Of a stretch of 64,000 nucleotides of DNA, positions 3,842-17,118 are shown piece by piece (the first letter of the stretch is position 1; every line of letters starts with the position of its first letter). The position numbers and the translations under genes were made by a program. The stretch spans positions 1 through 64,000 of the forward strand of contig NZ_JAFBBD010000001.1 in assembly GCF_016906995.1 (NCBI RefSeq). The letters run 5' to 3'. The notes beneath the pieces are model-generated. The model did no database searches and was not told the DNA's origin. It saw nothing but the letters and a program-made list of their open reading frames with translations. Source of the stretch: Spongiibacter marinus. Lineage in GTDB: Bacteria > Pseudomonadota > Gammaproteobacteria > Pseudomonadales > Spongiibacteraceae.

Positions 3842-4573
3842 CTATAGCCTCAAGCTCATTTCAAACTGTTTCAGCCATGCCTTCTTTTCCAAAAAAGATG
3901 GCATCACACGCTCTACTATTTGCCAAAAATCAGCAGAATGGTCATGCTGCTTTAAGTGGCACAGCTCATGGATAACGACATAGTCGACAACTGAATTCGG
4001 AGCCATCATCACTCGCCAGTTGAACTCTAGCCGCCCCTTTGCGGTACAACTTCCCCACCGGGATTTGAAGGACTTGATACCCACCCCTGTCGGCTCAACG
4101 CCCACCACTGGCGCGTAGCGTTCAACCTTCTCCACCAGCTTCTGTTCAGCCTGTCGCTTATACCAGCGCACAAGGGCATTACGGATCATGTGCGGCTGGT
4201 CTTTGCCTTGTGGCACGGTGACTACCAATCGTCCGTTAATCAGGCGTACAGGCTGGAATGCTCCCCTCTCAACCTTCAGTCGGTAATTCCGACCCAGATA
4301 GGAAAAAGCCTCACCCGACACAAACTGCTTTTCACTAACCGGCTGCGCTTGGCGATGCAGTACGATCTTGTCTTTGATCCACTTCCGCTTTTCCTTCAGC
4401 AGCGAATCTATACGCTCAATGGGCAAGTCATGGGGCACCACAACCGATACCGCCCCATCTTCAACCCGGATGTCCGCTGTCTTTCTTCGTTCGGTACGAA
4501 TGACTTCAGCAATAAAGCCGCTGGCTTCCCGGTACTCATGCTTCTGTGAAAGGGGTTTCATTGCAGCCATCAT
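3842..4573 (-). CDS. YgjP/SprT-like zinc metallopeptidase (DUF45)
   Basis: The protein carries the zinc motif HELCHLKQHDHSADFW near residue 200: HExxH with a third His downstream, as in the YgjP (M48-like/WLM) group. The preceding KSRWGSCTAKGRLEFNW segment is the other family signature. Length (243 residues) is normal. Members of this family are often encoded beside type I restriction genes, and here the ATG overlaps the hsdR stop as ATGA, so translation is coupled to hsdR. Its role in the restriction system is not established; proteolytic control of HsdR is an inference only. Confidence 0.88.
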   Translation of the reverse strand: MMAAMKPLSQKHEYREASGFIAEVIRTERRKTADIRVEDGAVSVVVPHDLPIERIDSLLKEKRKWIKDKIVLHRQAQPVSEKQFVSGEAFSYLGRNYRLKVERGAFQPVRLINGRLVVTVPQGKDQPHMIRNALVRWYKRQAEQKLVEKVERYAPVVGVEPTGVGIKSFKSRWGSCTAKGRLEFNWRVMMAPNSVVDYVVIHELCHLKQHDHSADFWQIVERVMPSFLEKKAWLKQFEMSLRL

Positions 4574-7500
4574 CGGAATTTGGTCTTCGCCAGTTCCATG
4601 AAACGGTCTTGTACGACCGTGACTATTGCCTTGTCACCATAGGAACAGTCCAAAATTGCCCGTTTTATCTCCTTCTTCATCCGCTTTACTTCATCGGGTT
4701 TGGCGAAGAAATCAACGATCTGGGTGGCTTCGTCGAAGGTCTGCACCAGTGACTGGCTGGTCGCTTTGATATCTTCATGCACTTCATCAGTGACCACACC
4801 ATCATCACTATGACCTGTCACTTCCGCCATCAGAATGTTGTAGAAAGCAAATTCGGTTTCGGTCAGCCCAAGGTCATCAGCCGCCTGTTTGTGTTCGGTT
4901 TCAATATTTGAAACCAAGTCCAACAGCAGTTCCAGCTGCTGGTCCCACTTGCCATTGGTTTGTTCGATGATTTCGCGTAGCCGCAAACTAAGTGACTTAT
5001 AGTATTCGGGGTCTTCATCAAGGTTGACCGTGATGTGGTGCTTGATCGCACTTTCAATCTCACTAGCGCGGGATTCCGGGGACTTGATCTGATCGACCGA
5101 TTCCTTGAAGTTCGCTGCCATCAAGTCAACCGGGGGTATCTTGGGGTCTACCCCGGTGCTGATAATGTGATCTTCGACCAGCTTGCGCACCTTTTCACCG
5201 GCGTCATTGATATTCAGCCCCGGATCGCGGTAGCGGTTACGGGCGGCATTCTGAACCTTGCCCCAGAATTTCAGGTCGGGCACAAAGGGCTTGGCAGCTA
5301 CATCCGGCAAGATTACATCCATCTGCTTGGAGAACTTCTTGTACGCCAGTTCGAATTGTTGCCGGGTGTCTTCGTTTTTTAGGAACAGTACGTAATCATC
5401 GATGTCTTCACCCTTCACGGTGCTGAAGATTTTCGCGACATTGGTATGGGCGGCTTTCAGCTTGGGTATTTCGTCTTTAAGGGAATGATAGGTACCTTCA
5501 ACATCGTCACTGCTGAACATATCTAGGGCTTCAGTCAGGTGATCTGACAGACCATAGTAGTCCACGACGAATCCCGCTTGTTTACCCTTGTAGGTTCTGT
5601 TCACCCTCGCAATAGCCTGCATCAGGGTGTGGTCTTTCAAGCTACGGTCGATATACATGACTTGAGCTATTGGCGCATCAAAGCCGGTCAACAGCATGTC
5701 TTTAACGATCAGGAAGGCAGTCGGGTCTTCTTTTTCCTTGTCAGTACCCAGCGGCTTAGTGAAGTTCTTGATGATTCGCTTGTGGTCGGCACTATTGGTA
5801 TACGGCGCATAGATGGGTTCATCGTTGTGCTTGCCACTGATAATCACCTCAGACGGTGGCGCACCCAATTCGTCCAGCGTCTTCTTGTACAGGGTCGCAG
5901 CATAGCGACTACCGACCACGATCATGCCCTTAAAGCCGTTGGGCTGAATCTTTTCCCTATAGTGGTTCAACAGGTCGATACAGACCCAGCGTATCCGGTT
6001 GGGTGCTTCACGCACTGCCCGTTCTACACCGTACTTCTGTTTGATTTCCTTCTTTTCTTCCGGGCTGTAGTCTTTGAAATATTCTTCAAACAGGGCATCC
6101 AGTGAGTCACCGACCACATCTGTCTGCACCTGACGCCCTTCGTAGATGATACGAACTGTCGCCCCATCTTCGACCGCTTCATTGATTTTGTACTGGTCGA
6201 TATAGCCACCGAATGCCTGATCCATCTTCTGGGTCTTCAACAACGGTGTACCGGTGAAGCCAATCTTGGGGGCATTGGGCAATGCTGCATTTATGGTCGC
6301 CGCCAGATTCCCAAACTGGGTTCTGTGAGCTTCATCTGCGAGAACAATGATCTTGTCACTGGGGTTCAGGTCTTTGAAGTCACCCTCGGCTTCCGCATCC
6401 TGAAACTTCTGCACCATGGCGGTCACGATGTCGGATGAATCTTTGCGAAGAAGGTCTTTCAGGGACGCTACCGATTTTGCGTTATGGATCGTTTCACTCT
6501 GGGCATTGCCGAAGGTATCCGACAGCTGCTTATCCAGCTGGGTACGGTCTGTGACGAATACCAGCTTGTATTGCTTCAGCTCCGGGTCACGGCGCATCTT
6601 CATCGCCAGCATAACCATCGTCAGGGACTTTCCTGAACCTTGGGTGTGCCATACGACCCCGGACTTTTCTTTTCGATCTTTGCCGGTTTTTAGCCGTTCT
6701 ATGACCTTGTTCACCGCTCGGTATTGCTGGTACCGCGCCACCTTCTTGATCAAACGACCATCGACCGCCTCAAAGATAGTGAAGTTCTGAATCAGGTCTA
6801 GGAAATTAGCGGGACTGAACATCCCGGCAATCAGTCGTTGTTGCGCTGTCACGGGGGTGGCAACATTGACTTCACCTTCGTAACAAACTGGTGATGCCAT
6901 TTCCCGCACTTCATATTTTGGTTTGTCGCAGATATCAGCATCGGTGAATGGATAAGCATCTTTCCAATCCCCGTAGTGCTGGGCACTGGAACTGATCGTG
7001 CCGACCTTGGCTTGATCCCGACAGGTACTGACCATCAGCTGGTTATACCAGAACAGCTTTTCAGCCCCTTCGTGTTCTTCTGGGTAACGTAGATTGGCAT
7101 AGCGGCGAAGCTGATTGATGCCTTCACCGATAGCATCCGCCACATAGGGTGATTTGCATTCGATCACTGCCAGCGGAATACCGTTAACAAAGCACAGGAC
7201 ATCAGGAATGATGTTTTGATTGGAACCTTCGATCTTGAACTGATTGGTACACAGGAAGTCATTATTAGCGGGATAGTCGAAATCAATGATCTTGACCGTC
7301 TGCCCTTTGCGACCTTTACCCAAGTCCTGTTCCACTGACAGGTAATTCACCATCATCTGATAGATGGCATGGTTATATTCCATCAACCCAGCATAGTTCG
7401 GGTGGGTAATTTCACGCATCACCTTCCGAAGATTTTCTTCACTAATCCATGGGTTCAGCTTTCGAAGGGCAGCTTCAAGGCGGTTAACCAACAGCACGTC

Positions 7501-7626
7501 ACGGTAGTACGCTCGTTCGCTTGAATTGTCGGGTGACAGCTGGGCACCGGGTACGTATTCCCAGCCCAGCTTGGTCAGCTGGTCTAGGGCGGGCTGTTCT
7601 ACCTTGTCGAGTTCATCCTGAAACAT
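4570..7626 (-). CDS. hsdR: Type I restriction enzyme, R subunit (nuclease-translocase)
   Basis: HsdR cuts DNA after ATP-driven translocation when the HsdMS complex meets an unmethylated site. The nuclease domain shows the PD-(D/E)xK elements IPDVLCF (about 141) and AVIECKSP (about 154). The motor shows Walker A HTQGSGKS (about 327), DEAH (about 431), GFTGTPL (about 465) and QAIARVNRTYKGK (about 672), with a helical C-terminal region. At 1018 residues it is full length and uninterrupted. It follows hsdS by 20 bp and overlaps the metallopeptidase gene, in the order hsdM-hsdS-hsdR-ygjP-like. The enzyme should be active if HsdM and HsdS are expressed. Confidence 0.96.
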   Translation of the reverse strand: MFQDELDKVEQPALDQLTKLGWEYVPGAQLSPDNSSERAYYRDVLLVNRLEAALRKLNPWISEENLRKVMREITHPNYAGLMEYNHAIYQMMVNYLSVEQDLGKGRKGQTVKIIDFDYPANNDFLCTNQFKIEGSNQNIIPDVLCFVNGIPLAVIECKSPYVADAIGEGINQLRRYANLRYPEEHEGAEKLFWYNQLMVSTCRDQAKVGTISSSAQHYGDWKDAYPFTDADICDKPKYEVREMASPVCYEGEVNVATPVTAQQRLIAGMFSPANFLDLIQNFTIFEAVDGRLIKKVARYQQYRAVNKVIERLKTGKDRKEKSGVVWHTQGSGKSLTMVMLAMKMRRDPELKQYKLVFVTDRTQLDKQLSDTFGNAQSETIHNAKSVASLKDLLRKDSSDIVTAMVQKFQDAEAEGDFKDLNPSDKIIVLADEAHRTQFGNLAATINAALPNAPKIGFTGTPLLKTQKMDQAFGGYIDQYKINEAVEDGATVRIIYEGRQVQTDVVGDSLDALFEEYFKDYSPEEKKEIKQKYGVERAVREAPNRIRWVCIDLLNHYREKIQPNGFKGMIVVGSRYAATLYKKTLDELGAPPSEVIISGKHNDEPIYAPYTNSADHKRIIKNFTKPLGTDKEKEDPTAFLIVKDMLLTGFDAPIAQVMYIDRSLKDHTLMQAIARVNRTYKGKQAGFVVDYYGLSDHLTEALDMFSSDDVEGTYHSLKDEIPKLKAAHTNVAKIFSTVKGEDIDDYVLFLKNEDTRQQFELAYKKFSKQMDVILPDVAAKPFVPDLKFWGKVQNAARNRYRDPGLNINDAGEKVRKLVEDHIISTGVDPKIPPVDLMAANFKESVDQIKSPESRASEIESAIKHHITVNLDEDPEYYKSLSLRLREIIEQTNGKWDQQLELLLDLVSNIETEHKQAADDLGLTETEFAFYNILMAEVTGHSDDGVVTDEVHEDIKATSQSLVQTFDEATQIVDFFAKPDEVKRMKKEIKRAILDCSYGDKAIVTVVQDRFMELAKTKFR

Positions 7627-7646: not shown

Positions 7647-8885
7647 TCAGGCTACTGCTGACTCCTTATTATCGACTTTTACCCTGACCTTACCGGTTAA
7701 CAGGTCTTGCATTAGGGCTTTTTTGACTTTAACAATTGAAGCTTCCTTCTTCTGCAATTCAAATACCGCTGAATCAACACTTTTCAAACTCGCTGCGATT
7801 TTGTGCTGTTCTTCAATAGGCGGCACGGGAACTAGAAGTTTTTTAAAGTAAGGAAGACCTATAGTTTTAATAGTGCTGCCAATTGCGATTGCTTCGAACT
7901 TTGGCTTCCAATATTGGAGTAAGTAATATAGGTAATGGTTGTCTAACCTTGAACCGCAATTCCATGCCATGAAATGCTGACTAACTGCCATTGGGCAGGT
8001 TGTTATTGCACTTTTCCCAATCCCAGCATCGCGGGACATAACAACAATCCCTGCGGGATGAAGTACAGCCGAAGAGTTCTTTATACCCAGGTCACTAATT
8101 TGTTTTTGAGATTCTGAAATGTATAACTTATCTAACCGATCAGAATCTGACAAAGAAATCCATTTGATACCGCCATTCCAATACTCGCCCTTTGACTTGT
8201 CTGGTGTATGCCCACTTCCGCGCTTTGCCACATTATCTAGTAATTCCGTGTCCCACCCCACCGGTATCCGCCCTACTGGCGAATCCTTGAATTCAGTGTG
8301 CGGAACGCCGCCCGGACCAATCCCTTTGGTCAACAACTCTTGCATCATCCCTGTTTTAAGGTCTTTCAGCTTGTCGATCTGTGCGCGGGTCTTTTCGATC
8401 ACGTCATCGACGGTGGACAGGATGGCAGCGATTTTTTGTTGTTCGGGAAGCGGAGGTGTTTCCACGCAATATTCATCAAGCACACCCTTCTTTATGTGCT
8501 TCATGGTGCTGCCGTGTGAAAGTTCCGCAAGCGGATCAATACTGTTTAGAATCAGTTGGTGTAGAAATAAACGATCAATGCCATCTTTTTCTTCGACCTT
8601 GAATATATGTTGATTGAGAACAGCGTCGCCGCGATCCCAAAGTAAGGCGGTTAACGTCGCCGACCACGAAAATAGTAAATCACCGTTTCGAATGTAGTTC
8701 TTGTCAGAAACATCATCGCCAGCGTAATAATCTAGGTCGGCGTTTCGGTTATTGATTTGTGCTATTCGAATGATCGGCAGCCCTTCACCTGACCAATCTT
8801 CTGGCTTAAATGCACGACCATTATAGTAATTTGCTAAAGCGGATAACGGCTGAAGCGACCACCCATCTGGAACCGGATTACTCAT
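7647..8885 (-). CDS. hsdS: Type I restriction enzyme, specificity subunit
   Basis: HsdS determines the DNA target of the methylase and nuclease complex. It has the two-repeat build of the family: a first target-recognition domain (residues about 1-150), a conserved helix with [20 protein letters not shown] (about 140-160), a second recognition domain (about 195-350) and the matching helix [19 protein letters not shown] (about 355-375). The length of 412 residues is typical. The start overlaps the end of hsdM by 8 bp, so translation is probably coupled. The recognition sequence cannot be read from the protein. Confidence 0.95.
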
Positions 8886-10596
8886 AACCCAACTCCGTCA
8901 GATACCTTTTCATCACGTCTTCAGCTTCCGTCACCTGTGAATCCAGTTGCTTCAACGACACCCGGTATTTGTCCCACCACCGTTCCAGCTGGGTAATGAC
9001 CTTGGCGTCTACATCACCCACGGTTTCCCGTATGGCTTCCTTGGATTCAATTTCTGGTTTGAATTCAAAGTAGTCGGTATCGCGCTTCACAAAGACCGTA
9101 CTGACATCAAAGTCTTCCAGTATTTCTTCACGGATGTACTCGCTTTCCACTTCACGCACGGGAATACCACCATGCAAGATCGCCCGTACATCATAGATTT
9201 CCGGGGGTGGGCTGGTATCGGCATAGCGGCGAATATTCAGGTTGTAGTCGTTTTCGGCAATGTTCACCAAGGTCACGACCTTTGAATACCGTTTGATCTC
9301 TACATAGTCGTCAAAGGTCTGAACGATCTTTTCAATGTCCTTTGGGCGAAGCTTGTTCTGGTTCTTGCCTTCTTCAAATTCCAGTTCGCTGTTGATGAAC
9401 AGCACCTTGCCTTTGCGCTCAGCCGGTTTGTTCTTGTTGATGATCAACAGACAGGCAGGAATACCGGTACCGTAGAACAGGGCTGACGGCAGACCAATGA
9501 CCGCTTCCAATAGGTCATCGCTCAGTATGCCCTTACGGATTTCTTTCTCACTGGAACCCCGGAACAGCACCCCATGGGGCATGACTACGCCCATCATGCC
9601 TTCCGCATTCAGACTGGCGATCATGTGCTGGACGAATGCCAGATCACCGGCGTCCTTCGGTGGAGTACCATATGGGAAGCGACCGTAGTTATCGGCATCC
9701 GCTTCTTCCTTACCCCACTTTTTCAAACTGAAAGGCGGATTGGCGATTACCCGATCAAAGGTCATCAGCTGACCACCTTGGGTATGCTGGGGTTCTCTCA
9801 GTGTGTCGCCCTTGGCAATGTCTGCGCTGTATACGCCGTGCAAGAACATGTTCATCTTGCAGATCGCCCATGTGTTCAGGTTCATTTCCTGACCGAACAA
9901 CGACAGGTTCGAAGGGTTCTCACCATTCCGGGCTAGGTAGTTACGGGTTTGCACCAACATACCGCCAGAACCCGCTGTAGGGTCATAGATGCGCATACCC
10001 GCATGGGGCTTGAGTAATGACACCAGCAGCTGTACCACTTCAGAGGGGGTATAGAACTCGCCCCCCTTCTTACCCGCTGAGTCCGCGAACATCTTGATCA
10101 GGTATTCGTAGGCAGTACCCAACAGGTCAGGACGCTCGAAGTCTTCGTTGCGCAGACGGTGGCGACTGAAGTGGCTCAACAGGTCACGCAGCTTCTTGTC
10201 TGACAGCTTGTTCTTGATATTGAAGTCGATGGATACCAACACACCTTCCAGTGAGGCGTTGTATTCTTCGATGGCTTCGGTGGCTTTGTTCAGTTCAGCA
10301 CCAATGTCGTGCTTCAGGTCTTTGATGGCATCCCATCGGGACACAGGTGGAATATAGAAGGTCTTGTCGTACTCGTCTTCGTCGTCAGCCAACTCACGGG
10401 CTTGAGCTTCGGTCTTACCTTTACCGATGTAGTACTGAACGACACCCTCTTTGGCTTCTTCAAAAGCATCCGACAGACGCTTCAGGAACATCATGCCAAA
10501 GATGTAGTCCTTGTATTCGGACGCGTCCATGTTGCCGCGAAGGATGTCGGCGGCTTCCCAGAGGAAGGACTCGAGTTGCTGGAGCGTAATTGCCAT
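8878..10596 (-). CDS. hsdM: Type I restriction enzyme, N6-adenine methylase subunit
   Basis: HsdM methylates adenine in the site chosen by HsdS. The N-terminal helical domain (residues 1-160, from [19 protein letters not shown]) is followed by the methylase core with [16 protein letters not shown] motif [11 protein letters not shown] (about 205) and catalytic motif IV NPPF (about 284). All key residues are present. I start it at the ATG 10596 (MAITLQQLE), which has AAGGAAAA upstream; the frame is open for 15 more codons. Coiled-coil-like C-terminal residues fit the HsdS contact. It is first gene of the minus-strand operon and is divergent from the S-like/M-like operon 257 bp away. Confidence 0.96.
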
Positions 10597-10762
10597 TCCG
10601 TTGATTTTCCTTATGTTTCCATGCTGCCCAGCAAGGGGCATGCACAGAGTGTATAAAAGCTGCTGCCATTGTAAAGCGCTATCGCCAGCGCATTTTTATA
10701 GTGCGGCCACACTCCACGAACTGCGGACTTATGGGGCAGTTATTCCGCGACAAGCCTTAATT

Positions 10763-10779
10763 TCGTATTTCGTTTACGA
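10763..10779. promoter_or_regulatory. 17-bp palindromic operator candidate, site 1
   Basis: TCGTA-N7-TACGA with a TTTCGTT spacer. The right arm ends one base before the -35 hexamer of the promoter at 10780-10808. An identical arrangement (same arms, same 7-base spacing) lies at 10814-10830, with centres 51 bp apart, close to five helical turns. This is the signature of a dimeric regulator binding as two aligned units. The regulator is not identified. Confidence 0.6.
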
Positions 10780-10808
10780 TTGACATTTTACCACCTCAGC
10801 CCTACCAT
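10780..10808 (+). promoter_or_regulatory. Sigma-70-type promoter of the S-like/M-like operon
   Basis: A perfect -35 hexamer TTGACA (10780-10785) is followed after 17 bp by TACCAT (10803-10808; four of six consensus bases). Transcription would begin near 10815, inside the second operator palindrome. The downstream ribosome site AAGGGGGT lies 5-12 bases before the ATG at 10854. Confidence 0.6.
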
Positions 10809-10813
10809 TTAAA

Positions 10814-10830
10814 TCGTATTTTAATTACGA
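10814..10830. promoter_or_regulatory. 17-bp palindromic operator candidate, site 2
   Basis: TCGTA-N7-TACGA with a TTTTAAT spacer, overlapping the expected transcription start. Together with site 1 it brackets the promoter, so occupancy should repress the operon, perhaps with a small DNA loop. The spacer bases differ from site 1 while the arms are identical, which argues for selection on the arms. Confidence 0.6.
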
Positions 10831-10853
10831 ATAATTATTTTAAGGGGGTAAGC

Positions 10854-11447
10854 ATGGCAGCAGGAAATTTGACTCCCCTTGGCGAAATTGCCGAAATTTT
10901 TATGGGTGCGACGGTCAGTTATTACTCCAAATTGCCGCTAGAAGGTGAGGATCGCCTATTGTTAATTAGCGGAAACAGCTTGGACGAACACGGAAATATT
11001 GTGGAATCTCGGCTTATTCCGGTATGGAAACACAAACACAACACAAAGCGCTTTATTGCACAGACTGGCGATGTACTCGTATTGGCACGGGGCAATATTC
11101 GAGCAACCGTCTTTGCCGAGGCGCTGCACGCAGAACCGCTATTAACCTCCGCGAATTTCGCGATAATTCGCCCACATCAGCCAGAAGTTAGCCACGCTTA
11201 CCTTGCCGAACTTATTAACACACCCTCGTCGCGCGAGAGGTTGGGTTTGTCGTTGGGAAAAGGCACCCCAAGCATTAGGGCTGCTGATCTTCGTCGTTTA
11301 AAAGTACCTATACCTGACCCACAGACGCGCAAAGCTATTGCAGAAATTCGTGATGCAAGGAATGAAGCATTCCGAGCGACACAGGCCCTTGCCGAACAGC
11401 AATATGCGACGGCAACGAGCATGATTGAGGGGTTATTGTGGTCATGA
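10854..11447 (+). CDS. Half-size HsdS-like DNA-recognition protein
   Basis: The protein resembles one half of a type I specificity subunit: a single recognition-domain-like fold (residues 1-150, opening LTPLGEIAEIFMGATVSY) and the conserved helix-plus-coiled-coil tail (KVPIPDPQTRKAIAEIRDAR, about 148-167). At 197 residues it has only one recognition domain; half-S proteins of other systems work as dimers on palindromic sites. It begins 46 bp after the promoter's -10, with ribosome site AAGGGGGT, and its TGA overlaps the next ATG (ATGA), so it is translationally coupled to the degenerate HsdM homologue. Its natural partner is therefore probably that protein, not the canonical HsdM encoded divergently. 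Confidence 0.8.
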   Translation: MAAGNLTPLGEIAEIFMGATVSYYSKLPLEGEDRLLLISGNSLDEHGNIVESRLIPVWKHKHNTKRFIAQTGDVLVLARGNIRATVFAEALHAEPLLTSANFAIIRPHQPEVSHAYLAELINTPSSRERLGLSLGKGTPSIRAADLRRLKVPIPDPQTRKAIAEIRDARNEAFRATQALAEQQYATATSMIEGLLWS

Positions 11448-12745
11448 ACAGCGAGAAAACCCGCATAATTTCCAAGCTTTTGGAAACCCGTGACCTCTGC
11501 AAGGGCCGCATTAAGCCCGATGAATTCTGCGAGGCCGTCGCGCTGTTCTTGGCGCTTGGCACCAAACACCCCGGCATAATTACCGAGGTACTCAAGGATG
11601 AAGAAAAATTCTGCGCTCCCTATGAAGGCTTTCTGTATAGATCACTCGCAGAAATACAGAAAAGAGAGCCCGATTTACCTTGGGACCCCTCGGGCCTCAG
11701 CCGCCTGTCTAACCTTGTCGCAAGAGCCATTGCGGAATTCACACTTTACCACCTGAATGAGCTCCCTATAACGGCCCAAGCTGTTCGTCAGTACTATGCT
11801 GAGCGTTATCACCGACCCTCTCGCAGTTATGTGAGACAAGCCAGTTTTTTTCAATATTTACTGGGGGATTTAAGCGGTAAGTCTTTTATCGACAGCCATT
11901 GTGGCTTGGCCTTTAAAAGCCAAAGACTAAAACCGAAGCATGGTGTTTTTGTTGAGGACGACAGCAAGATTGGCGTTCTCAGCCACCGCTTTCATATTGC
12001 AGAAAAGCGAGACGCTGCATTCATACGCCAAGATTACTTGCTAGGTGCCTGTGGGGATGTGGAACATGCTATTAACCCCCTAGCCTACGAACCTGAGCTT
12101 TATGATACAGCCTTAGTGGAGCCGCCAGCGGCTCTACCTCTTAGTGAGCAACAGCGCATTTCCTACCAGCAGCACTTCCCCTTTGTGCTTAAGCCCGAAG
12201 GAGAGCTACCAAGTACCGCAACACTTTCGCTCTGGCTTCAACAAACTTTTCGACAACTCAAGAAGCAGGGAAAGGCGTATGTGATAGTTCCTGACGGCTG
12301 GCTATCCAGAGGGGGCTATGATGGGCAGATTCGTGACTATTTCCTAAGCAATGGTCACGTTGAATCAGTGATTGCTCTGGACAGCATTCTCGACTGGACG
12401 TCTTTACTGGTGATTCGCAAGTTAGCGAAAGCGGATGAACCTGTGCGCTTTATGAAGCAATCATCCGCGCTGATGAATGCCCTAGCTGAGCCAAACCCTT
12501 CGGAAAATAGTTTTTACACAAGCACCGAACAAGATTCCGTTGCAGTGGATATCAAGGAACTTCAACGGGGGGATGCCAATGGTCGATATAGCGATCTTTC
12601 ACCCCAACGCTTCCTAGAGGCCAACAAACCTGAAAATCATCGGGATACCCTGGCTATTGAGCAAAGGAAATTAGCAAAGGCTGAAGCCAAAGCGAAGGCA
12701 GCTCAAGCAACGCTTGAAGCGCTTATGGATAAGTATGGTCGGTAA
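11444..12745 (+). CDS. Degenerate HsdM-like protein, probably methylation-inactive
   Basis: The fold follows HsdM: an alpha-helical N-terminal region (1-110), a methylase-like core and the family C-terminal stretch YVIVPDGWLSRGGYDGQIRDYF (shown at about 280-300), then a charged coiled-coil tail (385-430). Both catalytic signatures are lost. The SAM motif I position reads SFIDSHCGLAF (about 148) in place of DPTxGSGG, and motif IV reads VEPPA (about 225) in place of NPPF. So no adenine methylation is expected. The ATG at 11444 overlaps the stop of the half-S gene; a GTG at 11438 is a less likely start. The frame is intact and not decaying, so loss of catalysis seems selected. A DNA-binding or decoy role with the half-S protein is inference. 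Confidence 0.78.
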   Translation: MNSEKTRIISKLLETRDLCKGRIKPDEFCEAVALFLALGTKHPGIITEVLKDEEKFCAPYEGFLYRSLAEIQKREPDLPWDPSGLSRLSNLVARAIAEFTLYHLNELPITAQAVRQYYAERYHRPSRSYVRQASFFQYLLGDLSGKSFIDSHCGLAFKSQRLKPKHGVFVEDDSKIGVLSHRFHIAEKRDAAFIRQDYLLGACGDVEHAINPLAYEPELYDTALVEPPAALPLSEQQRISYQQHFPFVLKPEGELPSTATLSLWLQQTFRQLKKQGKAYVIVPDGWLSRGGYDGQIRDYFLSNGHVESVIALDSILDWTSLLVIRKLAKADEPVRFMKQSSALMNALAEPNPSENSFYTSTEQDSVAVDIKELQRGDANGRYSDLSPQRFLEANKPENHRDTLAIEQRKLAKAEAKAKAAQATLEALMDKYGR

Positions 12746-12758
12746 CTAGGAGGCAATT

Positions 12759-13154
12759 ATGGCAAACACTATACATTTCCCAAAGTTAGCTAATCAGTAT
12801 GTGGGTGTATACGGCACACTAAAGAGCGGTTTTAGCAATCACTCGCTGCTTGGGGACAGCCCATTAGTTGACGAGGGGTGGATTATGGGAATTTCACTCT
12901 ATGATCTAGGCCCCTTCCCTGGCGCAACGCGGAGCGCTTCCGAACAACCTGTTTTTGTTGAAGTGTATGCCGTAGACGATGACACACTGGCGGCATTGGA
13001 TCACTTGGAGGGCTATAACCCGGATTCTCCGTGCTCTTCGCTCTATATTCGACAGCAGATGCAGTTGGAAGCAGGCCCTAACTGCTGGATATATCTCTAC
13101 AACAAGCCCATAGACGGCTATCTCAGGCTCGATGACGGCATCTGGACTGGCTGA
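12759..13154 (+). CDS. Gamma-glutamylcyclotransferase-like (AIG2/GGCT fold) protein
   Basis: The N-terminal YVGVYGTLKSGFSNHSLL is the family's substrate-loop signature (YGTLxxG) and HLEGY near residue 89 supplies the catalytic-type Glu. Length (131 residues) is normal. Enzymes of this fold release 5-oxoproline from gamma-glutamyl-amine compounds; many bacterial relatives have unknown substrates. It is 13 bp behind the degenerate HsdM gene with ribosome site AGGAGG, so it belongs to the same operon. Why a cyclotransferase travels with S-like and M-like proteins is unclear; relatives near defence and toxin genes exist, but I do not infer a function from that. Confidence 0.82.
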   Translation: MANTIHFPKLANQYVGVYGTLKSGFSNHSLLGDSPLVDEGWIMGISLYDLGPFPGATRSASEQPVFVEVYAVDDDTLAALDHLEGYNPDSPCSSLYIRQQMQLEAGPNCWIYLYNKPIDGYLRLDDGIWTG

Positions 13155-13187
13155 TACGGATTTACTAAGACACCACACGGAGTTGGT

Positions 13188-13730
13188 ATGGCGACGATTA
13201 CCGCACGATTGCAACTGGGCAAACCGCACCCTTACGACAATGGAATATGCCAGGGCTACAACGCAATAGAGCTTTATGAGAACAGCAATATTCACTGGGT
13301 AGCTCAAACACGACAAGGCAAAGTCGTCTGGCTACCCAGAACCAGTCATACGGTGGCCGCCGATGGGCTCATGCTATTGGCTGCACTCTATATGCCAAGC
13401 AGCAAGGCTGGGCAAGAGCTGTCAGATAGGTTTTTCCCAGAGAAAGGCTATCAGCGTATCCGCCGCATCCACCTACCAGACGTGACTGACGTAGATTACG
13501 AAACGCTATACAACGACGTACTGACCGCGTTTCATACGGATGCACAGCCCGATAAAAAACGCATCAAATTGTTGGCCTCTGTATATGAGGGGTCTGTTTT
13601 ACACGCACAATTCGACAAGTTTACTGCCCTCGACTGCGACGTGGAGATTCTCACAACTAGCTATTGCAAGGCATATTCAGCATGGAGCGAACAAGAAAAT
13701 ATTCACGAGCGCCCCTTTGAATTGATCTAA
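13188..13730 (+). CDS. Hypothetical protein, 180 aa
   Basis: No family is recognised. The protein is soluble, mixed alpha/beta, without a signal peptide or membrane segment, and has two cysteines near 22 and 155 with a third near 165. It starts with ATG 13188 after a GGAGTTGGT ribosome site and lies 33 bp behind the cyclotransferase-like gene and 15 bp before the zinc-ribbon gene, so it is a middle member of the operon. Conservation with its neighbours in other genomes would be the only quick guide to its role. Confidence 0.65.
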   Translation: MATITARLQLGKPHPYDNGICQGYNAIELYENSNIHWVAQTRQGKVVWLPRTSHTVAADGLMLLAALYMPSSKAGQELSDRFFPEKGYQRIRRIHLPDVTDVDYETLYNDVLTAFHTDAQPDKKRIKLLASVYEGSVLHAQFDKFTALDCDVEILTTSYCKAYSAWSEQENIHERPFELI

Positions 13731-13745
13731 CGGAGAACCACTGTA

Positions 13746-14099
13746 ATGGAAATACACTATTGTTGGCGCTGTGACGCAGAGTTACCATTTTTGGATGAAA
13801 CGGAGTACAGCATTATTAAGCCATTGCTAGGCATTCCTGTACTGATTGACAGAGATAGCGAGGAGTGGCGGTTACTCAACCAAATTCCACTAGATATCTT
13901 TGAGAGTATTACCAGCCACAGGCTTAGTGAGCGGTCAGACATCCATCACCATAGGTTGTCGTTAATGGGACCAGAATGCCCTGATTGTGGGCACTTGCTA
14001 AGATCACCTAAAGCTGCGTTTTGTGCGAACTGCTGGAGCGACGTTAAGCCGAAAAGCAGCGAATCACCGAAGGAACACGCGCAGGAAAAGCGCGCTTAA
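13746..14099 (+). CDS. Small protein with two cysteine pairs (zinc-ribbon-like)
   Basis: There is a CWRC pair at the N-terminus (YCWRCDAELPF) and a CPDCG...CANC set near residues 78-98 (GPECPDCGHLL, AAFCANCW), a pattern of a treble-clef or zinc-ribbon fold. The middle is helical and the C-terminal 15 residues are charged and probably disordered. Such proteins bind nucleic acid or partner proteins; no enzyme motif is visible. It follows the 180-aa unknown gene by 15 bp with ribosome site ACGGAGAA and sits in the same operon. No specific family is claimed. Confidence 0.65.
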   Translation: MEIHYCWRCDAELPFLDETEYSIIKPLLGIPVLIDRDSEEWRLLNQIPLDIFESITSHRLSERSDIHHHRLSLMGPECPDCGHLLRSPKAAFCANCWSDVKPKSSESPKEHAQEKRA

Positions 14100-14123
14100 T
14101 ACCTCGACGAGGAGGGCAGCATC

Positions 14124-14306
14124 ATGGCAACACGTTTTCTGCTTGTTAGTGTTCTTCTACTTAGTGGGTGCGCTGGAACTAACCTACATGTCAATTCAGC
14201 TGGTACGGCGTCCATATCGACGCCTGTTGAGCTCGGTATTGCTCGATGCCATGTGACCGCCAGCGGGAGAAGCTCCGTACGGTACGGGGTAAGCTGTGGC
14301 CGATAG
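14124..14306 (+). CDS. Small lipoprotein, 60 aa
   Basis: Residues 1-16 form a short lipoprotein signal ending in the lipobox LLSGC (MATRFLLVSVLLLSGCAG), so the mature protein would be about 45 residues anchored to the outer or inner membrane. The mature part contains two further cysteines (near 43 and 58) that could pair. A strong GAGGAGGG ribosome site precedes the ATG. It is the last gene of the S-like/M-like operon. The sequence resembles small phage or plasmid surface lipoproteins in size only; no role is assigned. Confidence 0.6.
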   Translation: MATRFLLVSVLLLSGCAGTNLHVNSAGTASISTPVELGIARCHVTASGRSSVRYGVSCGR

Positions 14307-14318
14307 GCATCGTATGCC

Positions 14319-14942
14319 TTAGTATGAAGCCGTGACTTTCTTTTTTATATGAAATCCAGTTTTCCCGTAGCGAGAGCTCTTACCTATCTCACCGAACTGA
14401 ATCCCACCGATCGATAAGCACGCAAATCGATCAAGCGCCTCGACATCAGTTCTGCTGTTTTCAAAGACTTTCGTGAGATACCTTTCCAGGCTCTTACCTT
14501 CTGCGAGTCGATATTGGTCAAGTTGAAACTTATCCACCTTCTTTCGCTTACCACGATTCATTGACGCCACAATACCTTCAATAAGCTTCTTCATTCTTTC
14601 GAATTCAGGGAGGTACTGTTGCCCTTCAATCAACACATGGAAGTGAACAGTATCCTTCGCAGGAGTATCCTCCATCACCACCACCCCCGCCAGGCAATCT
14701 GATTTGACCCGACCATAACGAGCTCTGAAGATTCGCAAATTTAGCTTGTGAAAAAATTCGTTGAGATGCTCCGTGCAGCGGGCTTCCGCCTCTAGATACG
14801 GAAATGTCAATGTTAGGTGGTAGGTCGTATTCATTGACCGCAACCAATCAATTAGTTGCTCCCTGCTATCTGCATTATTCGATGAATATTCCCCACTAAC
14901 CAACTGCTTGATAGATTTTTTACTCAATTTAACGTTATACAT
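14319..14942 (-). CDS. HUH-type Rep-like endonuclease
   Basis: The protein shows the three motifs of rolling-circle initiators in order: YHLTLTFPY (residues about 42-50; motif 1), VHFHVLIEG (about 97-105; the HUH metal motif) and SLERYLTKVFE (about 150-160; Tyr with YxxK spacing, single-tyrosine type). It would nick one DNA strand by a covalent tyrosine link at a double-strand origin. I start it at ATG 14942, preceded by AGAGGAAA; the frame opens 15 codons earlier. At 207 residues it is small, with no helicase domain. It is convergent with the S-like/M-like operon and divergent from the gene at 15154. It suggests that the island can replicate or mobilise after excision; it could instead be a relic of a captured plasmid or filamentous phage. 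Confidence 0.72.
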   Translation of the reverse strand: MYNVKLSKKSIKQLVSGEYSSNNADSREQLIDWLRSMNTTYHLTLTFPYLEAEARCTEHLNEFFHKLNLRIFRARYGRVKSDCLAGVVVMEDTPAKDTVHFHVLIEGQQYLPEFERMKKLIEGIVASMNRGKRKKVDKFQLDQYRLAEGKSLERYLTKVFENSRTDVEALDRFACLSIGGIQFGEIGKSSRYGKTGFHIKKKVTASY

Positions 14943-15039
14943 ATATTTCCTCTTTTTGTTAGACAATAAGATATTCAATGCACCCACTAGCTGGGCACAG
15001 TCGTTTATCTTCTAATTTTCACCATTCCGGTAAGCACGC

Positions 15040-15052
15040 CATAGCTGCTATG
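15040..15052. repeat. 13-bp perfect inverted repeat beside the Rep-like gene
   Basis: CATAGC-T-GCTATG forms a perfect palindrome in the region divergent between the Rep-like gene and the gene at 15154. A run of eight G (15112-15119) and a small CCCA/TGGG hairpin (14983-14996 area) lie in the same region. It is a candidate for a Rep nick or bind site, or for a regulator of the divergent pair. Confidence 0.45.
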
Positions 15053-15153
15053 TACGCGATAACGGACCGAGGAACCGGCCGAAATAGCACCGATTCATAG
15101 ACTATTTATAAGGGGGGGGTGAAAATCCGTTGAAAAAAATTTAGAGTGGCGTA

Positions 15154-15525
15154 ATGACAGCAGCGAAAACACCGGCAACTTCAAGCGCAACGAGGGCTGC
15201 AAGCCGCTCGAAGGCAAAAAGGAGAGTCCAGAAAAAAATCGAAATCCTCCGTGAACTTTGCCCTGAGAAATGCAAATGCGTCGCTAATTTTCGGTGCTTA
15301 AAGGACCTAGGCGCACTGCATAGCGAGGTCCTTCTCATGTCTCATAGCCTCAAGTGGATTTCAGCCGAGCTCAACGATTCCGGTATCAAGACAGTTAGTC
15401 GCAAAGGTAAGTGGGAGCCAACAACGCTGAAGAACATCTTCAGAGAGGAGCTCCCTCGCGCCCTGAAGTGCAAAGATGATCACACTTACCTAAAGGAGCT
15501 ACTCCGAGAGATTGAGGGTGGCTAG
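15154..15525 (+). CDS. Hypothetical basic protein with a recombinase-like C-terminal helix motif
   Basis: Residues 1-30 are Ala/Ser/Lys/Arg rich and probably disordered, then follow a CPEKCKC cysteine group (about 36-42) and a C-terminal segment LKWISAELNDSGIKTVSRKGKWEP (shown in part; about 66-90). The pattern ISAELNxxGIKT...GKWxPTTLxxI is like the recombinase helix found after the catalytic domain of large serine recombinases and in small DNA-binding proteins of mobile elements. There is no catalytic domain, so it is more likely a DNA-binding accessory factor, perhaps an excisionase or Rep partner. It overlaps the 3' end of the convergent integrase gene by 27 bp. Confidence 0.5.
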   Translation: MTAAKTPATSSATRAASRSKAKRRVQKKIEILRELCPEKCKCVANFRCLKDLGALHSEVLLMSHSLKWISAELNDSGIKTVSRKGKWEPTTLKNIFREELPRALKCKDDHTYLKELLREIEGG

Positions 15526-17118
15526 TAATTTTTTAGCCATACCGAACAACTCATCGCCATAATCGATTTTCAAAGCAGGCTCATGGAGTTGACGCAGTCT
15601 CTTACCGGCGGAGTACACTGTTTTTGCCAGAGTCTTTCTGCCATCCTCATGTCCCACCAGGAGGGAGATATACTCGTCCGGTACGTCAGCTCGATCTAGA
15701 GCGGTTATTGCCGTACTTCGGAAGCTGTGCAAGGTATATCTACGCTTGTGGCTGTCATCAGGAAAGTACCCCGTTTTCCAGCGATTGAAGCGGTCTGAAA
15801 CCTTCTTTGAACGGCGGTCATCGTGAGTCACCAACCCCGGCAGAAGGTAGTTGTCAGGTGAATTTGCGATCAACCAATCTACAACCAGCTCACTACCCCG
15901 ATTGAGCGGTATTTCTCGTATGCCAGCCTGAGACTTCGAATAGGGTAGAAAAATGGCTCTTACTCCGTCAACGATCCGGATATCGTCCTTCTTGAGCTGA
16001 CACACTTCCTCTACACGCATGCCCGAGTACATGGCCAGCAGTACTGTCGGCAGGAGAACCCGAGTCGGTGCAGATGTCCCCTTAATACTGAATCGCGCAA
16101 GATCAGGAAGCATCTCCCTAAGCATCGCGTTGTCATAGGCTTCATTGGGGATAGCCTTACGAACCCCTCTCTTGGACTTTGGCAACAGTCCCACTGCATG
16201 CTCGAAAGGGTTGGTATCTGCCGCATCAAGAACACGAACACCATAGCGAAATACGGTAGAAATAGTTGAAATATTGTCAGAACAGGTTGTTTGGCCCGGC
16301 CAATGTTGCTGGGCCTGTTTAACAAACGCCCTGACATGCTGCTTGTTAATCTTATTGAGTGGCATTGCCAGCCCCATCGGAGCCAGGCATTCACGAGCGA
16401 ATAGAGCAACAACTTTTCGGACGTTCTTAATCGCGGAAGTACGAGAGCCATTCGCGACACGGTGTTCAAGGTACTGATCCAATACCTCGCCAAGCGTTTG
16501 CCCATAATCACACTGCAAATACTCGCCGGTGACTTTTGCAAAGTTACGAGCCATAGCCGTATCCCCCAGCAGCTCTATAGCTTTGGCTTCATAGAGGCTG
16601 AGGTAATCACTTGTTCCAAGTGGCGCTAACAGTTGATCTACATTATCTGGGGATAACTGATCGCTATTGCGAACGACGAAGTCCCTACGGTGTTGGTCTA
16701 ACAGCCCCTCCTCTTGCTTTTTGCGGTGAACAATAAGGCTCATTAGATAGTCGTAGAGCTTGGAGGCTTCATCCGGAAGTGACTTATTAGGCTCTTGATC
16801 GGTGGTTTCACACCGATTGGGAGCTGCAATGCCCTCGAACTCCTCGCCTCGAAGCAATGCAAACAATGCCTCCCATTCAGCGAGTATCTTAGCGGCCACC
16901 CCAGCCGCTTCGTGCTTTGAAACTTTACCCGTCGACCTAGTTAGCTCTTTCCGAGGTCTACCCTGCCGTGTTGCAAGAATGGGATTTCCGACCAAATCGG
17001 ACGGTATCCGCTTTCTGACATACCAGTATTTCGACGCACGACGTCGATGCAAATAGTCTGAGCAGTCCCCGATAAACGTTGCGCGATGTGTAGCACTTTG
17101 TGTAGCACCCTGTTGCAT
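15499..17118 (-). CDS. int: Tyrosine integrase of the island, 539 aa
   Basis: This is a full-length tyrosine recombinase. The N-terminal region (YLHRRRASKYWYVRKRIPSDL) matches the DUF6538 DNA-binding segment of many island integrases, followed by a SAM-like core-binding domain (about 215-330). Catalytic residues are Arg near 366 (YSGMRVEEVCQL), a Lys in the following hairpin (LPYSKSQAG), His-x-x-Arg near 463 (LHSFRSTAI), His near 490 (VGHEDG) and the nucleophile Tyr near 502 (TVYSAG). It begins 74 bp from the 18-bp att repeat and reads into the island, the usual layout for the enzyme that inserted the element. It would recombine tRNA-Phe 3' ends. Confidence 0.94.
   Translation of the reverse strand: MQQGATQSATHRATFIGDCSDYLHRRRASKYWYVRKRIPSDLVGNPILATRQGRPRKELTRSTGKVSKHEAAGVAAKILAEWEALFALLRGEEFEGIAAPNRCETTDQEPNKSLPDEASKLYDYLMSLIVHRKKQEEGLLDQHRRDFVVRNSDQLSPDNVDQLLAPLGTSDYLSLYEAKAIELLGDTAMARNFAKVTGEYLQCDYGQTLGEVLDQYLEHRVANGSRTSAIKNVRKVVALFARECLAPMGLAMPLNKINKQHVRAFVKQAQQHWPGQTTCSDNISTISTVFRYGVRVLDAADTNPFEHAVGLLPKSKRGVRKAIPNEAYDNAMLREMLPDLARFSIKGTSAPTRVLLPTVLLAMYSGMRVEEVCQLKKDDIRIVDGVRAIFLPYSKSQAGIREIPLNRGSELVVDWLIANSPDNYLLPGLVTHDDRRSKKVSDRFNRWKTGYFPDDSHKRRYTLHSFRSTAITALDRADVPDEYISLLVGHEDGRKTLAKTVYSAGKRLRQLHEPALKIDYGDELFGMAKKLLATLNLSE

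Follow-up and report, generated by a model that had tools for sequence, protein, structure and literature searches.

A half-size HsdS and a non-catalytic HsdM relative as a putative autoregulator of a type I restriction operon

Genes at the locus

We analyzed 64,000 nucleotides of the Spongiibacter marinus genome (the window). In this window, a complete hsdM-hsdS-hsdR locus is divergent from a two-gene operon (Table 1). As the first-pass annotation had proposed, this separate operon encodes a one-domain HsdS-like protein, which we call S', and an HsdM-like protein, which we call M', that lacks both motif I and NPPF. The reading frames are clean, and their start and stop codons overlap, as was also proposed. 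M' (about 433 amino acids) could begin at either GTG 11438 or ATG 11444; the ATG, which overlaps the stop codon of S' as ATGA, is the likelier start.

Table 1. Genes and predicted regulatory sites at the locus (positions in the window).
Feature	Position	Strand	Remarks
hsdR	4570..7626	-	Adjacent type I system
hsdS, full length	7647..8885	-	Adjacent type I system
hsdM, NPPF intact	8878..10641	-	Adjacent type I system
Predicted operator O1, TCGTA-N7-TACGA	10763..10779	.	Exact copy; the genome has one other (O2)
Promoter-like TTGACA-N17-TACCAT for S'M'	10780..10808	+	Between O1 and O2; consensus match only, 10/12 positions
Promoter-like TTTAAA-N17-TAAAAT facing hsdM	10785..10813	-	Between O1 and O2; 9/12 positions
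Predicted operator O2, TCGTA-N7-TACGA	10814..10830	.	The other exact copy in the genome
S', half-size HsdS	10854..11447	+	197 aa; one target-recognition domain and one long C-terminal helix
M', HsdM-like protein that lacks motif I and NPPF	11444..12745	+	Begins at GTG 11438 in the first-pass annotation

S' has a single weak Methylase_S domain (Pfam, E 4.3e-5). In its predicted model (pLDDT 84), the helix spans residues 156-196, and the best Foldseek match is Esub1 (8vsr/8vsq, E 2e-10), followed by several HsdS chains (1e-5 to 4e-5). S' has the target-recognition fold and helix of HsdS but not its two domains. The best PADLOC match for S' is mad5 (5e-11), narrowly ahead of type I HsdS models. 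We rejected a MADS defence system, as the scores were far below the NCBIfam cut-offs (MAD5, 27.9 bits versus 400; MAD2, 16.1 versus 720). Esub1, the nearest solved structure to S', is a free-standing half-HsdS-like protein that was crystallised with Prx, which we take to be the phage protein paratox. The structure raises the question of whether phage proteins target half-S regulators; a search for "Esub1" and "paratox" in the open-access literature gave nothing useful.

M' matches the N6_Mtase family of Pfam over residues 260-318 only (E 1.8e-9, 37.8 bits with a cut-off of 20.4), and its predicted model (pLDDT 81) is most similar to type I/IIB-like M subunits and HsdM chains. By fold and sequence M' is a relative of HsdM, but it has neither the catalytic NPP[YFW] nor the SAM motif I: the neighbouring HsdM has DPTAGSGG as motif I and NPPF as motif IV, and in these places M' has DSHCGLAF and EPPA. 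A Pfam search (E up to 1) found no helix-turn-helix family in S' or M', and Rfam and tRNA scans led nowhere.

The S'M' operon and hsdMSR seem to lie on one common mobile island. On the 3' side of M' (12759-17118) are a GGACT-family gene, a 180-aa protein of unknown function, a zinc-ribbon protein, a Rep-like gene (minus strand), and a tyrosine integrase (minus strand). A search for the 180-aa protein in plasmids led nowhere. On the other side, hsdR is followed by a metallopeptidase-like gene (HELCHLKQHDHS; 3842-4573, minus strand), and homologues of this gene are also found near hsdR in two of the loci described below (L091 and L102; locus and genome numbers are our own). An M48-type gene is reported as part of the RptR island (PMC12255303).

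Recurrence and conservation of the pair

Among 293 genomes of the same order, we found two more full-length M' proteins, in G212 (35% identity) and G254 (28%); the other matches were short stretches of HsdM-like proteins. A plasmid search added Moellerella wisconsensis. A profile search of 369 genomes of the class and 398 of the phylum added only Rheinheimera (G758), at 496 bits; the M' of the window scores 644 bits, and all other matches scored at most 125 bits and were classed as ordinary HsdM or other M proteins. A scan of genome contigs gave 17 S'M' loci, from Vibrio, Enterovibrio, Rheinheimera, Paraglaciecola, Sansalvadorimonas, Legionella, Aliidiomarina, Idiomarina, Acinetobacter, and MAGs. 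Searches of phage records and viral contigs gave no relatives of M', and a search for the Moellerella S'M' DNA in E. coli genomes led nowhere.

In all 17 loci from the contig scan, a half-S gene is directly 5' of M'. In 15 of them, the same strand carries hsdM 3' of the pair, separated from it by a small ORF in L088 and L091; L102 has a fragment of hsdM beside the pair, and in L103 another gene is followed by the end of the contig, with no hsdM in view. The window, G212, and Moellerella bring the total to 20 distinct loci (two duplicates, L089 of L026 and L092 of L084, were each counted once), and hsdM is beside the pair in 18 of these. All 20 are labelled as Gammaproteobacteria, except for one that is labelled only as "bacterium." The order S'-M' and the open frames are kept in every locus. 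The type I operon, which is divergent in the window, is mostly 3' of S'M' on the same strand in the relatives. The cognate HsdM proteins form six clusters at 45% identity, so S'M' travels with different type I systems. S'M' is a real, recurrent module.

In two of the loci, in Moellerella (L024) and Vibrio ordalii (L090), S'M' and the type I genes are directly behind TnsE-like genes, as cargo of a Tn7-like element. G212 (L025) has an island similar to that of the window, with an integrase.

The asparagine of NPPF is replaced in all 20 M' proteins (by E in 11, T in 6, Q in 2, and H in 1), while NPP[FY] is kept in 18 of 18 cognate HsdM proteins. This asparagine was not part of the patterns used to search for M', and a loss this consistent beside intact cognates is more than chance. 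(The RGGYD of M' is also invariant, but it was one of the search patterns, so we do not use it as evidence.) In three M' proteins (L100, L102, and L104), motif I is still close to canonical, and these may have kept the ability to bind SAM. The doubled-hsdM loci G500, G539, and G532 looked like intermediates, but NPPF or NPPY is intact in both of their copies. L085, L086, and L087 are type I loci in which two hsdM genes stand side by side, each with its NPPF or NPPY.

Among 14 comparisons of gene pairs, dS was saturated in two. In the 12 that could be computed, dN/dS was 0.07-0.28 in 11 and 0.37 in one pair of very low divergence. The S'M' genes are under purifying selection, and on this ground we rejected a pseudogene. 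The first-pass annotation had argued for selection on a non-methylating DNA-recognition pair, and it had named recurrent co-occurrence with conserved loss of NPPF as support. The 20 loci, the loss of the asparagine in all of them, and the dN/dS values agree with its argument.

Twin palindromes at the promoters of half-S genes

The first-pass annotation dealt with the proteins only, and the most informative DNA is just outside the genes it described, at 10763-10830. There, in the hsdM-S' intergenic region, we noticed the palindrome TCGTA-N7-TACGA by eye, so its choice was post hoc. It has exactly two exact copies in the 3,572,376-base genome, and both bracket the predicted S'M' promoter: one abuts the -35 box and the other is over the start region. 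For comparison, the pattern read backwards occurs four times on the forward strand of the genome. There are no further copies in the window with up to one mismatch. A palindrome with a 7-base gap is the geometry that is read by homodimers of half-HsdS proteins. There is a second candidate promoter for hsdM at 10675-10648, nearer to hsdM and outside of the O1-O2 bracket; either could serve hsdM in the window. TAGCTA, the site of RptR, is absent from 10597-10853.

The same palindrome is found upstream of S' in 13 of the 20 S'M' loci with up to one mismatch (200 shuffles: mean 0.1, maximum 2) and in 17 of 20 with up to two mismatches (mean 2.2, maximum 7); the loci are related to one another, which makes p-values optimistic for this set and for the other half-S loci below. 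Across the 20 loci, there are 24 sites with up to one mismatch in 6,614 upstream bases versus four in 388,157 other bases. G212 (L025) has one site only; L091, L095, L099-L102, and L104 have no site with up to one mismatch, and L095, L099, and L101 have no site upstream of S' even with two mismatches. When aligned, the sites extend to AA[AT]TCGTW-N7-WACGA[AT]TT, and the conserved flanks were not used in choosing the sites.

We also searched 11 of the 17 genomes from the contig scan for TCGTA-N7-WACGA. In seven of the 11, there are 2-3 sites within 90 bp at one place, which is always the S'M' promoter. No other such cluster was seen among the sites listed, and one of the 11 genomes (L101) has no site at all.

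The type I operons without a half-S gene that served as controls do not have the motif. With up to two mismatches, it is absent from all of 24 hsdM-led operons, and also from all of 14 operons that lack S' but have an HsdM with 45-72% identity to that of Rheinheimera. (This second control has results for 14 of 16 loci, and the two sets have no locus in common; control loci L037 and L055, which have an S-like gene upstream, were skipped.) Given the second control, we rejected the motif as a trait of the type of restriction system instead of S', and the motif follows S' across the six HsdM clusters.

Other type I operons are also led by a half-S gene, and in these HsdM is mostly intact. On a Methylocystis plasmid, half-S is followed by an intact HsdM, a full HsdS, and HsdR, and the promoter has GCTGTA-N7-TACAGC twice. 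Of 54 plasmid records, we used 13 in addition to Methylocystis, selected to cover a range of genera. The 12 that are annotated all have the order half-S, hsdM, full hsdS, and all 12 HsdM proteins have NPPF.

The half-sites change with the clade. CTGTA-N7-TACAG, taken from Methylocystis, is found with up to one mismatch in five of nine other clade members, three more have an N8 pair, and L134 has neither. A CTGTA pair with either gap is found in none of the 20 S'M' loci, one of 20 other half-S loci, and none of the 24 controls; with up to two mismatches, it is also found in one S'M' locus, five other half-S loci, and six controls. Further half-S loci have other half-sites: CACTA-N7-TAGTG is present in six of 20 (and in one of 24 controls) and GCATCA-N7-TGATGC in four of 20. 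For the N8 form of CTGTA, and for the CACTA and GCATCA half-sites, the loci that supplied the pattern are also those in which it was counted, so these counts are descriptive and are not tests.

A test that does not depend on any motif gave a twin palindrome at p ≤ 0.02 (150 shuffles per locus) for 16 of 30 other half-S loci and none of 24 controls (Fisher 9e-6, again optimistic for related loci), leaving 14 of the 30 without a significant one. At p ≤ 0.1, the counts were 19 of 30 and three of 24. Among 27 loci that have two sites, 18 have their best sigma-70 match between these (4.7 expected under uniform placement). (The 30 loci are L107-L141 without L121 and L122, which are the window and Rheinheimera S'M' loci; L125, a fragment; and L126 and L128, which have a full-length HsdS. 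The start of half-S was set from the tblastn match in L109 and L113 and by hand in L140.)

Three half-S genes are paired with a short M protein, with NPPW in L111, NPPF in L117, and VPPL in L114. For these three pairs (L142-L144), a comparison with our own reference set found no recognisable hsdR or second hsdM within 11-13 kb, so a complete type I system need not accompany the half-S class. The pairs in L142 (7035-8911) and L143 (3921-5803), with VPPL and NPPW, have no recognisable type I system nearby and are possible stand-alone versions.

A predicted autoregulator and its relatives

Several known systems resemble S'M' in part. The truncated HsdS proteins of EcoR124I and EcoDXXI form dimers, which recognise GAA-N7-TTC and TCA-N8-TGA (PMC3874165). 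Like these and NgoAV, S' would form a half-HsdS homodimer that reads a bipartite palindrome with a gap of 7 or 8 bp; unlike S'M', with its promoter site and dead M', those complexes methylate with an active HsdM (PMC3874165). RptR is the first gene of a type I island and represses its own promoter through repeated palindromes, but it is a 9 kDa four-helix protein that reads the 6-bp TAGCTA (PMC12255303), and S' and M' are far larger. C proteins are small operon-leading autoregulators with twin operators at their own promoter, as we predict for S'M', and a C-family protein precedes a type I hsd locus in Mycoplasma gallisepticum; however, C proteins are helix-turn-helix dimers (PMC12707154), whereas S'M' has the folds of HsdS and HsdM. 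Similarly, the methyltransferases of Ecl18kI, SsoII, and EcoRII repress their own restriction-modification genes, but these are type II systems with an added helix-turn-helix or repressor domain (PMC12707154), and S'M' would use the target-recognition domain of HsdS.

The closest precedent for S' is hsdS_short of the staphylococcal four-gene hsdRSMS systems, whose role is described as undefined (PMC10030836). Like S', it is a conserved half-size HsdS (191 aa) that is directly 5' of hsdM with a promoter in front, and it is conserved while the long HsdS varies (PMC10030836). Unlike the S'M' loci, these systems encode an intact HsdM (NPPY in S. nepalensis) and no dead M'. The window does not have the hsdRSMS arrangement, as half-S precedes a dead M' and hsdM and hsdS are divergent. 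The account of hsdS_short that we draw on suggests a stabilising role and not regulation (PMC10030836). For the system of Staphylococcus xylosus under a foreign promoter, methylation changed when hsdS_short was omitted, and in E. coli hsdS_short by itself was toxic (PMC10030836). A pure regulator does not explain the change in methylation, and these findings favour another or an additional role in staphylococci. In two staphylococcal plasmids, we found TGTAG-N10-CTACA twice in the gap between hsdR and hsdS_short, around TTGTTT-N17-TATATT (a promoter identified by eye). The first of these belongs to a hairpin, possibly the terminator of hsdR, and the gap is N10 instead of N7, so this pair is only suggestive as operators.

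Our preferred reading, to which we give a probability of roughly 78% from the sequence evidence, is that S'M' is a site-specific autoregulator of the restriction operon. Two S' proteins would pair via their C-terminal helices, with one M' each, in an M2S2-like complex. This S'2M'2 complex would bind each of the TCGTA-N7-TACGA palindromes that bracket the S'M' promoter, with M' acting as a DNA clamp. In EcoKI, neither S nor M alone binds DNA (PMC3874165), and M' would have been retained as the partner without which HsdS does not bind; because the catalysis of M' is gone, the complex would read its sites without marking them. Once bound, it would regulate its own operon and the adjacent type I operon, and its net effect is probably repression. 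The simplest form of this would be occlusion of the promoter or bridging of the two sites, given that one abuts the -35 box and the other is over the start region. Activation at low dose, as in C proteins, would also be compatible with this reading. This might hold restriction down or postpone it, for instance upon arrival in a new host.

There is a modest chance that the palindromes are real operators but that S'M' mainly activates, or activates at low dose and represses at high dose, as type II C proteins do. Twin sites are usual for C proteins (PMC12707154), and the placement of the two sites in the window would fit; the sites flank the promoter in 18 of 27 loci, though, which suits repression. 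It is less probable, and we think unlikely, that S' is an accessory of the modification complex that stabilises or retunes HsdM-HsdS, in the way suggested for hsdS_short of staphylococci, with M' as a structural partner and with palindromes that serve something else. In E. coli, full methylation of the expected motif was obtained from hsdSMS and not from hsdMS (PMC10030836), and S'M' is encoded beside hsdM in 18 of 20 loci. But an accessory role leaves unexplained why the twin palindromes at the promoters differ from one half-S clade to another and why there is a dedicated M' that has lost NPPF, and S'M' persists beside a mere fragment of hsdM in L102 and with no hsdM in view in L103.

The first-pass annotation had offered a repressor, a decoy, an anti-restriction factor, or part of an unknown defence system as possible roles. 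The twin sites at the operon's own promoter favour the first of these, and the others found no support. A dead pair could poison the assembly of HsdM-HsdS, and the loci are on mobile elements, but S'M' shares its element with a restriction operon in 18 of 20 loci, it was not found in phage records or viral contigs, and the exact sites in the genome are confined to its own promoter, so we consider an anti-restriction, decoy, or separate defence function very unlikely. That S'M' is a decaying duplicate of hsdMS is scarcely credible: the catalytic motifs are lost, but the low dN/dS in 11 of 12 computable comparisons and the intact order and frames in 20 of 20 loci are not what decay would leave.

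The autoregulator reading could extend beyond S'M'. It is an even bet, in our view, that the half-S genes that lead type I operons in Pseudomonadota, and perhaps in staphylococci, form a general and unrecognised class of transcription regulators built from the subunits of restriction enzymes, in which the promoter of each clade has a twin operator that is specific to the clade. One form would borrow the active HsdM of the operon, which could also methylate the operators and so give them an epigenetic memory; the form in the window would have a dedicated pseudo-methyltransferase that reads without marking. In the open-access literature (excluding preprints, and with few subscription papers), we recognised no description of a transcription regulator made of HsdS and HsdM; the regulators of type I systems that we met there were RptR (PMC12255303) and the C-family protein of Mycoplasma gallisepticum (PMC12707154).

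If the autoregulator reading is correct, S'M' would represent a class of regulator, and it would explain why a methyltransferase fold is kept after catalysis is lost. It would also offer a role for the half-size HsdS of the four-gene systems, which is left open in PMC10030836, and our analysis supplies the predicted operator sequences.
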